A stretch of DNA of 64,000 nucleotides from Curtobacterium sp. UCD-KPL2560. GTDB lineage: Bacteria; Actinomycetota; Actinomycetes; Actinomycetales; Microbacteriaceae. The stretch covers positions 1 to 64,000 of the forward strand of contig NZ_MCIG01000011.1 in the NCBI RefSeq assembly GCF_001705035.1, given 5' to 3'. The first letter of the stretch is position 1, and the number at the start of each line of letters is the position of its first letter. A model generated the notes under the pieces. It did not search any database. It had not been told where the DNA came from and saw nothing but the letters and a program-made list of their open reading frames with translations. The position numbers and the translations under genes are program-made. Shown in pieces: positions 59,599-63,974 of this stretch.

Positions 59599-60387
59599 AT
59601 GAGCACGCCGACACCGGACGACCCGACGCCGAGCGCTTCCTGGTGGCACCGGTGGGCGCTCTCGCCCCGCGCCGCCGTGCTCACCGGCGCGGTGGTCGTC
59701 GCGGTGGCGCTCGTCGTCGTCGGCGTGGGCGCGATCGGTGGCCCGTCGAGCGAGGACGTGACCGTCACCGGGGCGGGGACGGCCCTGTCCGGTGCGGGCG
59801 GCGGAGCGCCAGCCGGCCGATCCGCTGCTGCCGACGGGGAGCCCGGGGCAGGCCGATCGTCGCCGCCGTCGCCGCCGTCGACGTCGCCGCCGTCGGGTGT
59901 CGCCGTGTACGTGCTCGGTGCGGTCGGACACGCCGGCGTCGTGCAGGTGCCCGCGGGCTCCCGCATCGAGACGGTGCTCGAGCGCGCCGGGGGACCCGCA
60001 GCCGACGCCGACCTGACCCGGCTCAACCTCGCGCGGCTCGCCGTCGACGGCGAACGGTTGTACGTCCCACGGGTCGGCGAGGACGTCGTGCCCGAGGCCC
60101 TGGCGCCGGACACGGGCGGTGGGGTAGGCAGCGGGACGGGTGGTGCGGGCGCGGGTGCTGCTGGTGGCGGGGCTGCTGGCACCTCCGGGCCGGACGCGGT
60201 CGTCGACCTCAACACCGCCGACCAGGCCGCACTCGAGACCCTGCCCGGGATCGGCCCGTCCCTCGCCGCACGGATCATCGCCTGGCGGACCGAGCACGGC
60301 CGGTTCTCGTCCGTCGAGGACCTCCTGGACGTCAGCGGGATCGGCGACGGACGGTTCGCGGAGCTGCGCGACCGGGTGCGGGTGTGA
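59599..60387 (+). CDS. comEA: Competence protein ComEA (DNA-binding, helix-hairpin-helix)
   Basis: 262 residues. One N-terminal membrane anchor (about 24-46), a Ser/Pro/Gly linker, an SLBB domain (VAVYVLGAVGHAGVVQVPAG, VPRVGED), a Gly/Ala linker, and a C-terminal (HhH)2 with VDLNTADQAALETLPGIGPS and SVEDLLDVSGIGDGRF. It binds incoming double-stranded DNA at the outer face of the membrane and hands it to ComEC. comEC GTG overlaps the stop. Confidence 0.95.
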   Translation: MSTPTPDDPTPSASWWHRWALSPRAAVLTGAVVVAVALVVVGVGAIGGPSSEDVTVTGAGTALSGAGGGAPAGRSAAADGEPGAGRSSPPSPPSTSPPSGVAVYVLGAVGHAGVVQVPAGSRIETVLERAGGPAADADLTRLNLARLAVDGERLYVPRVGEDVVPEALAPDTGGGVGSGTGGAGAGAAGGGAAGTSGPDAVVDLNTADQAALETLPGIGPSLAARIIAWRTEHGRFSSVEDLLDVSGIGDGRFAELRDRVRV

Positions 60388-63300
60388 GCGCCGCCGGAGT
60401 GGACCCACGAGCCGCTGCGGGCGTCGACCTGCGGCCGGCTCTGGCCGATCTGCGGTCCGCCGGGCCGGTCGCCGTCGCCTGGGTGCTGGCCGCGCTGCTC
60501 GTCGGTGCGCCCGGGGCGGCGACGACCACCGCGGTCGCGTCCGCCGTGGGCCTGCTGCTCGCGCTGGTGGTGCTCGTGCGCCCGTCACCAGGAGCGGTGC
60601 CGGCCGCGTCCCGAGCGGCTGCCGTCCGTGTGGTCGCCGCGGTGCTGCTCACCACGGCGGGGTGCGGTTCCCTCGTGTCGCTCGCGGTCGTGACGGCGGA
60701 GCACCGCCGGTCGCCGGAGGAGCTCCTCCGCACGGTCGGCAGGACCGTGACCGTCGACCTCGTGCTCACCCGTGACCTCGGTCCCGGGGACCGCTCCGTC
60801 TCCGCGACCCTGCGGCGCGCCACCGACGCCCGCTCGGCCTCTGCGGGTGGGACACGGTCGACGCTCGACGTCCCGGTCCGGGTCGTGCCCGCGGACCGGA
60901 CCGTCGCAGCCGCCGGGACCCGGCTCGTCGGGCGGGGGACCGTCGAACGCGACGAGCCCGGCTCACCGACGGCCGCCGTCGTCTTCCTCCGCGGACGCCC
61001 CGAGGTCGAGCCACCGTCCGGGCTCCTCGCGGCGACCGACCGGGCACGCCGGGCCTTCGTCGCCGTGACCGAGGACCTGCCCGAGCCGGGCGCCGCGCTC
61101 CTCCGCGGTCTGGCGATCGGGGACCGCAGCGGGCTCGACGCGGGGACCGAGGCGGCGATGGAGACGTCGGCACTGACGCACCTCACGGCGGTGTCCGGAT
61201 CGAACAGCGCCGTCGTGGTCGGGCTCGTGGTCGTCGTCGGTCGTGCACTCGGGGTGCCGCGCGTCGTGCGTGCCGTGTCGGCGGTGGTGCTGCTCGTCGG
61301 GTTCGTCGTCCTGGTCCGGCCCGACCCGTCGATCCTCCGAGCGACCGTGATGGCCGTCGTCGTCCTGGTCGTCCGCCTCGCCGGGCGCCCGGTGCGGGGC
61401 GTCCCGCTCATCGCGCTGGCCGCGGGCGGGATGCTCGTGGTCGACCCCTGGTACGCGCGGTCCGTCGCGTTCGTGCTCTCGGTGCTCGCGACCGCCGGGA
61501 TCGTCGTCCTCGCGCCGCCCCTGACCGTGCTCCTCGGCAGGCGCCTGTGGGGACCGGTCGCGGCGGCCGTGGCCGTGCCCGTCGCCGCCCAGGCCGCGTG
61601 CTGGCCCGTCACGGTCGTGCTCGCGCCGACCTTCCCGACCTACGCGGTCCCGGCGAACCTGCTCACCGAGCCGCTCGCGCCGCTCGTGACGGTCCTCGGG
61701 CTCGCGGCCTGCCTCGTCGCACCGGTGTGGCCCGCCGGTGCCGGCGCGCTGGCGGTCGTCGCGTGGGCGCCTGCCGCGGCGATCGGTGCGATCGCGCACG
61801 GTGCGTCCTCGCTGCCGGGATCGTCCCTCGCTTGGCCGTCCGGCATCGTCGGGGTCGCCGCGGCCGCGGTCGTCAGTGCGGCCGTGGCCGTCGCGGTCCT
61901 CACCCGACCGGCCGTCCGGTCCCGGGTGCTCGTCGCAGGAGCGGTCGTGTTCCTGGTCGGGATCGGTGCGGTCGTGGTCCCACGGTGGGTCGTGCGGGGG
62001 AGCGTGCCCGGGGACTGGGCGGTGGCCGCGTGCGACGTCGGGCAGGGCGACGCCGTGCTCGTGCGCGACGGACGTCCGGGTGACCCCGTCGCCCTCGTCG
62101 ACACCGGTGACGACGAGGAGCGCCTGCGCACCTGCCTCGACCTGCTCGGGGTGCGACGGATCGACCTGCTCGTGCTGACCCACTTCGACCGCGACCACGT
62201 GGGCGCCGTGTCCGCGGTCGCGCACCGCAGCGACCGTGCACTCGTCGGCCCGACCGGTCGTGCGGCGGACGAGCGCGTGGTCGACGACCTCCGGGACGCC
62301 GGGGTCGACGTGCGCGCCGCGGACGACACGACGGCCGGGGAGCTCGGGCGGCTGCGGTGGTCGGTCCGGTGGCCCACAGCGGGTTCGACCACCGCGGGCA
62401 ACGACGCGAGCGTGGTCCTGCAGACGGGGGCCGGGAGCGACTGCGCCACCTGTGTCCCCGGGGTCTTCCTCGGCGACCTCGGCGAGGACGCGCAGCGTCG
62501 GCTCCGTCCGCACGTGCCCGGACACCCCGACGTGGTCAAGGTGGCGCACCACGGTTCCTCCGACCAGGACCCGGGCCTGTACCGGCAGCTCGCGGCCGCT
62601 GTCGGGCTCATCGGCGTCGGCGCCGACAACACGTACGGGCACCCGACGCGCGCGGCACTCGACGACCTGCGCGCGGCCGGGACCGAGGCGTTCCGCACCG
62701 ACACCCAGGGAACGGTCGTGGTGTCGCGAGCGCCCGGGGGAGCACTGCGGGTGTGGACGGAGCGCAGGGCCGAGGAGCGGCCGTCGGCATCACCCTCGAC
62801 GACGACGTCGGTGCTGCCGGCTGCTCCGGTCTCGTCCGCGCGGCTGCCCGACCGGGAGCCGGGGCAGTGGCCGGCGGGAGCGCCGGCAGGGTCGGCGGCG
62901 GGCCGTAGGATCGTCGCGGGCCGAGGACGCTCGCGCCCGCGACGGAAGGACCGCATGCCCGCCAAGAAGCCCTCGCGCGCCGCCGCAGCGATCGACCAGG
63001 TCCCGTGGTCGGGCGTCCGACCCGCGCCGGTCGTGCTCGTCACCGGCCCCGAGTCCTTCCTCGCCGAGCGCGCGAGCAGCGTCCTCCGCGACCTGCTGGT
63101 CGGCGAGGACCCGGCGCTCGAGGTCCACGACCTCGAGGCAGACCAGTACGCGCCCGGTCTCCTGTCGACCCTCGCGAGCCCGTCGCTCTTCGGCGAACCC
63201 CGACTCGTGCGGGTGACGAACGTCGAGAAGTGCACCGACGCCTTCATCACCGAGACGATCAGCTACCTGCAGGCGCCCGCCGACGACGTCACGCTCGTGC

Positions 63301-63974
63301 TCCGGCACGGTGGCGGTGTCCGCGGCAAGAAGCTCCTCGACACCATCCGCAGCGGGGTCGGTGGCGGCATCGAGGTGCAGTGCGACGAACTCAAGCGCGA
63401 GACCGACAAGATCGACTTCGTCAACGCCGAGTTCCGGGCCGCCCGTCGCAAGATCGCGCCCTCGGCGGTGCGCACCCTCGTCGCCGCCTTCGCGGACGAC
63501 CTCGCCGAGCTCGCTGCGGCCTGCCGCCAGCTGCTGGCCGACGAGGCGCAGGAGATCACCGACCGGGTCGTCGACAAGTACTACGGCGGCCGCGTCGAGA
63601 CGAACGCGTTCAAGGTGGCCGACCTCGCACTCGCCGGGCGCTCGGCGCTCGCGATCGTGGAGCTCCGGCACGCGCTGGCGACGGGTGAGGCCCCCGTCCC
63701 GATCGTCGCCGCCTTCGCGAGCAAGATGCGCACGATGGCGAAGGTCAGCTCGTTCCGCGGGTCGAGCGGTCAGGCGGCGTCGGCGCTCGGCATGGCGCCG
63801 TGGCAGGTGCAGCGTGCGCAACGGGACGTCGCCGGGTGGAGCGAAGCCGGGCTTGCGAACGCGATCACGAGCGTCGCCGAGGCCGACACCGCGGTGAAGG
63901 GTGGCTCGCGCGACGCGCACTACGCGCTCGAGGTCATGGTCCGGGTGATCGCCCGGCGCGGCGAGGCCCGCTGA
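60384..63974 (+). CDS. comEC: ComEC DNA-uptake channel; frame continues without stop into HolA
   Basis: Starts GTG 60384, overlapping comEA. Residues 1 to about 805 are ComEC: several membrane helices, the competence motif LTAVSGSNSAVVVG near 264-277, and a C-terminal metallo-beta-lactamase-like domain (about 545-800) with DVGQGDAVLV, THFDRDHVGAV (His600-His605) and VAHHGSSDQ (722 region). The ComEC part ends naturally around RVWTERRAEER, but no stop occurs. About 50 Pro/Ala/Arg-rich residues lead straight into the HolA start codon at 62955 in the same frame. The predicted product is 1196 residues. I checked every codon from 62763 to 62955: none is TAA, TAG or TGA. Whether the fusion is made, or a stop was lost recently, is open. 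Confidence 0.85.
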   Translation: MSAAGVDPRAAAGVDLRPALADLRSAGPVAVAWVLAALLVGAPGAATTTAVASAVGLLLALVVLVRPSPGAVPAASRAAAVRVVAAVLLTTAGCGSLVSLAVVTAEHRRSPEELLRTVGRTVTVDLVLTRDLGPGDRSVSATLRRATDARSASAGGTRSTLDVPVRVVPADRTVAAAGTRLVGRGTVERDEPGSPTAAVVFLRGRPEVEPPSGLLAATDRARRAFVAVTEDLPEPGAALLRGLAIGDRSGLDAGTEAAMETSALTHLTAVSGSNSAVVVGLVVVVGRALGVPRVVRAVSAVVLLVGFVVLVRPDPSILRATVMAVVVLVVRLAGRPVRGVPLIALAAGGMLVVDPWYARSVAFVLSVLATAGIVVLAPPLTVLLGRRLWGPVAAAVAVPVAAQAACWPVTVVLAPTFPTYAVPANLLTEPLAPLVTVLGLAACLVAPVWPAGAGALAVVAWAPAAAIGAIAHGASSLPGSSLAWPSGIVGVAAAAVVSAAVAVAVLTRPAVRSRVLVAGAVVFLVGIGAVVVPRWVVRGSVPGDWAVAACDVGQGDAVLVRDGRPGDPVALVDTGDDEERLRTCLDLLGVRRIDLLVLTHFDRDHVGAVSAVAHRSDRALVGPTGRAADERVVDDLRDAGVDVRAADDTTAGELGRLRWSVRWPTAGSTTAGNDASVVLQTGAGSDCATCVPGVFLGDLGEDAQRRLRPHVPGHPDVVKVAHHGSSDQDPGLYRQLAAAVGLIGVGADNTYGHPTRAALDDLRAAGTEAFRTDTQGTVVVSRAPGGALRVWTERRAEERPSASPSTTTSVLPAAPVSSARLPDREPGQWPAGAPAGSAAGRRIVAGRGRSRPRRKDRMPAKKPSRAAAAIDQVPWSGVRPAPVVLVTGPESFLAERASSVLRDLLVGEDPALEVHDLEADQYAPGLLSTLASPSLFGEPRLVRVTNVEKCTDAFITETISYLQAPADDVTLVLRHGGGVRGKKLLDTIRSGVGGGIEVQCDELKRETDKIDFVNAEFRAARRKIAPSAVRTLVAAFADDLAELAAACRQLLADEAQEITDRVVDKYYGGRVETNAFKVADLALAGRSALAIVELRHALATGEAPVPIVAAFASKMRTMAKVSSFRGSSGQAASALGMAPWQVQRAQRDVAGWSEAGLANAITSVAEADTAVKGGSRDAHYALEVMVRVIARRGEAR
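62906..62911 (+). promoter_or_regulatory. -10 box of holA within the comEC frame
   Basis: TAGGAT, 43 nt upstream of the holA ATG. A GTCGCGGGC/GCCCGCGAC hairpin (62913-62921 with 62935-62943) occupies the leader, just before GGAAGGA. Confidence 0.5.
62955..63974 (+). CDS. holA: DNA polymerase III subunit delta HolA (internal start in the comEC frame)
   Basis: 339 residues, a complete HolA by length (E. coli 343). The clamp-loader delta subunit opens the sliding clamp. N-terminal domain PAPVVLVTGPESFLAERASSVLRDLL, then LEADQYAPGLLSTLASPSLFGEPRLVRV, and C-terminal helices (YYGGRVETNAFKVADLALAG) are typical. ATG 62955 has GGAAGGA 4 nt upstream and a TAGGAT -10 box, so it can be made on its own. 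comEA-comEC-holA is a common gene order. Only 26 nt of uninformative sequence follow before the window ends. Confidence 0.95.
   Translation: MPAKKPSRAAAAIDQVPWSGVRPAPVVLVTGPESFLAERASSVLRDLLVGEDPALEVHDLEADQYAPGLLSTLASPSLFGEPRLVRVTNVEKCTDAFITETISYLQAPADDVTLVLRHGGGVRGKKLLDTIRSGVGGGIEVQCDELKRETDKIDFVNAEFRAARRKIAPSAVRTLVAAFADDLAELAAACRQLLADEAQEITDRVVDKYYGGRVETNAFKVADLALAGRSALAIVELRHALATGEAPVPIVAAFASKMRTMAKVSSFRGSSGQAASALGMAPWQVQRAQRDVAGWSEAGLANAITSVAEADTAVKGGSRDAHYALEVMVRVIARRGEAR

Follow-up and report, generated by a model that had tools for sequence, protein, structure and literature searches.

An old and probably accidental path to ComEC-HolA fusion: the comEC frame extends into holA across Curtobacterium

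HolA, the delta subunit of DNA polymerase III, is needed for replication. ComEC/Rec2 proteins combine a Competence domain with a following metallo-beta-lactamase (MBL)-like domain, and this C-terminal domain is described as extracellular in the relevant part of the account by Silale et al (2021; PMC8579336). Overlaps that arise when the upstream gene is lengthened at its 3' end are reported to be the more frequent kind in the sections of Fonseca et al (2013; PMC3887535) that treat them. The corresponding sections of Palleja et al (2008; PMC2478687) report that, across 338 genomes, none of the co-directional overlaps of 60 bp or more was real, and give 3' extension of the upstream gene as one class of error. 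Among the publications listed for comEC with holA, and for Curtobacterium with comEC, no account of a joint between the two genes was found.

The window, which is the whole stretch of 64,000 nucleotides analysed here from Curtobacterium sp. UCD-KPL2560 (contig NZ_MCIG01000011.1), holds comEA, comEC and holA in succession on the + strand. The product of comEA (59599-60387) is recognised by Pfam HHH_3 and SLBB, with an NCBIfam comE score of 86.5 bits that lies under the cut-off of 152.35, and the comEA stop shares four nucleotides with the comEC start (GTGA, 60384-60387). Up to its conserved C-terminal VWTER motif, comEC occupies 60384-62765 and encodes, like the ComEC/Rec2 of Silale et al (2021; PMC8579336), the Competence channel domain (8.3e-40) and then the MBL-like domain (Lactamase_B, 7.9e-08), both over the Pfam cut-offs; the ComEC family profile TIGR00361 reaches 148.1 bits, under its cut-off of 190.05. 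The locus departs from the parts of that description which concern the C-terminus in that no stop follows the conserved end and a low-complexity tail continues from it. The earlier note had read the comEC frame as running without a stop before holA, and this is borne out by the ORF and domain searches: a stop-free frame of 1196 aa, with a predicted mass of 122.7 kDa, extends from GTG 60384 to TGA 63972-63974, and Pfam Competence, Lactamase_B and DNA_pol3_delta_C together with NCBIfam holA all fall in this single frame (60384-63974). The distance from the end of ComEC to the HolA Met, which had been put at about 50 codons, was counted as 63 Arg/Ala/Pro/Ser-rich codons (189 nt between the last base of VWTER, 62765, and Met 62955). 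The holA gene (62955-63974) scores 176.9 bits with TIGR01128, whose cut-off is 80, and 19.7 bits with Pfam PF06144, just under the cut-off of 21. It is like other HolA in passing the NCBIfam cut-off and in having its own ATG, and differs in lying in frame behind comEC with no stop between them. As the frame holds no other stop, complete translation of comEC would in this species necessarily take in HolA. Openness by itself is weak evidence, since at this high G+C content the same stretch also has frames 402 to 559 aa long on the opposite strand and one of 326 aa on the + strand; the comEC frame is likewise open upstream of GTG 60384, as far as 59643.

An error of sequencing or assembly that removed a stop or shifted the frame might be suspected in the window's genome, which is in draft form with 156 contigs. 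G027, which belongs to the same species and is assembled as one contig, carries a linker equal to the window's in length (189 nt) and in translation, which excludes such an error for practical purposes. The in-frame opening recurs in two more Curtobacterium genomes, G005 and G006, and the absence of a stop before holA from 63 of the 65 Curtobacterium genomes speaks further against this explanation.

Within the genus, 66 genomes were searched, and all 65 with holA were examined (loci L059 to L123, the window's own included); G065, 73% complete and with holA match absent, was left out. Loci were placed by tblastn, and the stop that first follows the ComEC end in frame was located relative to the holA ATG. 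The earlier note had proposed locating the comEC stop in related genomes: it lies before holA in only two of the 65, while comEC enters holA out of frame in 59 and in frame in four. The out-of-frame stops are scattered from +82 to +1517 nt past the holA start (59 genomes), and in four of these genomes (L066, L073, L074 and L096) the stop lies beyond the end of holA. In L083 the stop is at -12, within the TAG of the putative -10 box considered below, and in L084 it is at -125, directly after VWTER; the near-identical sister of the latter, L082, is open. L084 and L082 form a natural pair for testing the tail. A separate observation concerns L106, L110, L113, L118 and L119, in which the last VWTER-like motif of ComEC is immediately preceded by Gly/Asp-rich low-complexity insertions.

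The in-frame loci (L059, L060, L064 and L065) belong to four genomes from three species, namely G000 (the window's genome) with G027, G005 and G006. On the survey tree, rooted on the most divergent genome, L123, the loci L059/L060 adjoin L064 (support 0.66) and L065 lies in a sister clade with out-of-frame members. The in-frame register appears from this tree to be rare, with about two origins. The deepest-branching loci, L120 to L123, also have no comEC stop before holA, so that the loss of the stop is old. The suggestion that a stop had been lost recently is not supported, as 63 of the 65 genomes, deepest branches included, are without a comEC stop before holA.

Outside the genus, 146 genomes of the family had a holA match and 110 loci were fetched, most of the 36 unfetched genomes having lower HolA scores; the ComEC end could be aligned in 104 of the 110, and the six with the MBL match absent were dropped. 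In these other genera comEC stops upstream of holA in 85 of the 104 loci, in 70 cases at a distance of 10 to 96 nt, and reaches or enters holA in 19, with none of the 104 in frame; the HolA starts here were placed by homology and are approximate, that of L136 giving +1 in one pass and -44 in another. The frame is open into or to holA in 63/65 loci of the genus against 19/104 of other genera (Fisher P 1.5e-26, uncorrected for relatedness). Nine named loci from other taxa were measurable; eight stop upstream, and L049 (Frondihabitans) runs 209 nt into holA. Other members of the family have also acquired a comEC that enters holA. Of 14 loci from outside the genus (L156-L169) that were fetched, among the matches listed, for their long open HolA frames, eight had a ComEC match, and in none of these eight was ComEC in frame with HolA. 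In L165 (G112), L222, L225 and L250, all from other genera, the comEC frame stays open, out of frame with holA, over the remainder of the stretch examined; measured in a separate pass, that of L165 meets a stop only at +1097.

One of the two possibilities raised in the earlier note is that a membrane-anchored clamp-loader delta is made besides free HolA. Such a functional ComEC-HolA fusion would bring replication proteins to incoming DNA, and four open in-frame genomes from three species speak for it. A further point in its favour is that L059 and L064 may share one origin, their box-to-ATG segments differing by 42 nt, a multiple of three. However, the in-frame joint is not conserved across species, being found in 4/65 genomes of the genus and 0/104 loci of other genera, and frame keeping between box and ATG was not detected. 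The ComEC C-terminal domain, moreover, is extracellular in the part of Silale et al (2021; PMC8579336) that describes it, and in the window's ComEC the last hydrophobic segment ends at residue 533, with none after it; taken together, these imply that anything after VWTER should be outside the cytoplasm. A clamp-loader subunit outside the cytoplasm cannot work there. A tethered subunit would accordingly be implausible, the anchored delta is not supported on the topology given in that source, and we regard a functional fusion as highly improbable. The second domain does have independent start signals in the fused genomes.

An ATG for holA stands at the homologous place in all 65 Curtobacterium genomes, the start script having preferred ATG where several starts were possible. 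GGAAGG is present within 20 nt upstream of it in 49/65; in the window this Shine-Dalgarno-like motif occupies 62944-62949, 5 nt before the ATG. The hexamer TAGGAT at 62906-62911, inside the comEC frame (cgT AGG ATc), is the putative -10 box of a holA promoter and is separated from the ATG by the segment 62912-62954. This box has the form TAGGAT in 49 genomes and TAGACT in 12, together 61/65, that of L113 having been placed by hand; L120 to L123 have other purine-rich sequences upstream of the holA ATG. A simple sigma-70 scan found no promoter at the TAGGAT site and missed the box, so that the assignment rests on conservation and on the TANNNT -10 pattern described for high-GC groups in the relevant passages of PMC3160421. 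In 12/65 genomes the box lies exactly 12 nt before the ATG, approximately the place that the same passages describe for leaderless genes (PMC3160421). TAGGAT boxes at this spacing, with no GGAAGG, occur in one clade (L071, L076, L080, L083, L088, L091, L094, L095, L097, L098, L100 and L116). The arrangement suggests a leaderless holA mRNA in that clade, as opposed to a GGAAGG leader in most other genomes, and hence a change of initiation mode within the genus. The fused genomes retain box, GGAAGG and ATG. Since either a ribosome site or a leaderless-type promoter accompanies the conserved ATG, free HolA is expected to be produced without dependence on comEC. That HolA has its own start, as the earlier note supposed, is very probable to judge from these signals (ATG in 65/65, GGAAGG in 49 or a leaderless-type box in 12).

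Upstream of the box lies the stop-less comEC tail (62766-62905 in the window), whose length varies across the genus mostly without a shift of the ComEC frame. Changes in length were scored on the tree by parsimony, and simulations in which every change received a random frame served for comparison. From VWTER to the TAGGAT/TAGACT box (61 genomes; the box tests leave out L120 to L123, 4/65, which have TACACT in its place), there were 28 length changes, of which four changed the frame against 14.4 expected, and as few as four frame changes occurred in 0/1000 and 0/2000 simulations. No frame keeping was detected from the box to the ATG (15 length changes, seven frame changes, 8.6 expected, P about 0.24), and none in the control holA-rpsT intergenic region of 58 genomes, seven of the 65 loci being left out as rpsT was not found (54 changes, 26 frame changes, 26.7 expected). 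A second tree, built from holA only, gives the same frame-keeping picture. The ComEC frame is, then, preserved as far as the putative holA promoter; keeping beyond it, to the ATG, was not detected. Variable sites between box and ATG in the 12 genomes of clade J had neither a codon-position pattern nor a third-position excess, which, like the composition considered below, speaks against an ordinary coding tail.

It can be asked whether comEC is ever translated past VWTER, since recoding, an early mRNA end or a silent comEC would leave the downstream frame meaningless and open through high G+C alone. High G+C does leave many frames open, and the tail is without ordinary coding composition: its G+C content by codon position, 0.74/0.82/0.84, shows no ordinary coding signature and counts against the explanation that we prefer. 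This composition is not decisive, as codons for Pro, Ala, Ser, Gly and Arg have a high G+C content at their second position. Stops in the tail, with the box excluded, number zero in the ComEC frame and three and three in the other two, too few to decide; composition and stop counts both leave out four near-duplicate rows. As codon-position composition shows no coding signal, the signal of the tail rests on frame keeping and weakly on the stops. Tail length changes do keep the frame, unlike those of the control intergenic region in the same genomes, and a comEC that is never translated past VWTER seems to us quite improbable.

The long out-of-frame overlap could itself be functional, through coupling of comEC and holA or through use of a holA-encoded ComEC tail, in which case the fusion would be one variant of it. 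Consistent with this proposal, the out-of-frame entry of comEC into holA covers 82 nt or more in 59/65 genomes, and over the whole distance from VWTER to the ATG the frame is kept better than chance (34 length changes, eight frame changes, 17.8 expected). In two lineages, L086 and L103/L109/L119, the box has shifted in phase and a compensating change downstream lets comEC enter holA in the same phase as before; substitutions that re-formed the box elsewhere would give the same appearance. Where comEC enters in phase 2, phase-2 stops arise more rarely within the first 700 nt of holA (1.5 against 5.1 per unit branch length). Total-distance frame keeping, offset shifts and the scarcity of phase-2 stops would fit selection on the overlap. 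Against a functional overlap stand the scatter of the tail ends (+82 to +1517), the lack of detected frame keeping from box to ATG, the clade J sites without codon-position pattern, and the phase-1 stops in holA, which are not avoided in the phase-1 register (3.6 against 3.8 per unit branch length). We consider a functional overlap unlikely. In clades B_113 and G_six, where comEC enters in phase 2, holA phase-2 stops that are common elsewhere, such as that at position 466, are absent or nearly so.

We propose, as the probable explanation, an old genus-wide 3' extension of comEC, of which the ComEC-HolA fusion is the in-frame accident and not a new machine. The comEC stop would have been lost at or before the base of Curtobacterium, and comEC would since then have had a fast-changing low-complexity tail whose frame crosses the holA promoter and continues into holA. 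Insertions and deletions would make the phase of this entry drift, with mostly out-of-frame results and about two in-frame ones, the in-frame register having presumably been reached downstream of the box for the window's lineage and upstream of it for L065. HolA would come from a promoter and a ribosome site of its own, probably leaderless in one clade. Translation of comEC would here yield a ComEC-tail-HolA polypeptide, whose HolA part would lie outside the membrane, inert or trimmed, and the fusion would then be without a function of its own. This explanation of an old 3' extension gives no reason for the frame keeping up to the box.

It may tentatively be hypothesised, though we hold it to be doubtful, that the Curtobacterium overlap is genuinely translated, with a ComEC tail partly encoded by holA in another frame (or, in a few species, with HolA itself as the tail) and with openness through the promoter under selection. 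If true, this would be a genus-wide exception to the rule published in the relevant sections of Palleja et al (2008; PMC2478687), by which 338 genomes hold no real co-directional overlap above 60 bp. A translated overlap would also turn the genus into a ready-made set of cases in which one gene enters another, with all three phases represented, and this set, with the two stop-regaining genomes (L083 and L084), could be used to learn whether a long overlap on one strand is tolerated, beneficial or harmful. On the practical side, gene callers that take the longest frame could report one ComEC-HolA protein and overlook a replication gene, or could move starts so that the genes do not overlap.

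The locus may be compared with two kinds of described overlap. As in the overlaps treated in the relevant sections of Fonseca et al (2013; PMC3887535), an upstream gene has lost its stop and runs into its neighbour on the same strand, and both out-of-frame phases occur; in 85/104 loci of relatives the comEC frame stops upstream, and in 63/65 genomes of the genus it continues into holA. The comEC/holA case differs from the overlaps of those sections in its presence in nearly every examined genome of the genus, in an overlap that is often hundreds of nucleotides long, in a putative promoter within the tail, and in about two lineages that have come into frame. The locus likewise resembles class iii, 3' extension of the upstream gene, in the part of Palleja et al (2008; PMC2478687) that sets out misannotations, but here the overlap appears to be common to most species of a genus and is not an error of one genome.
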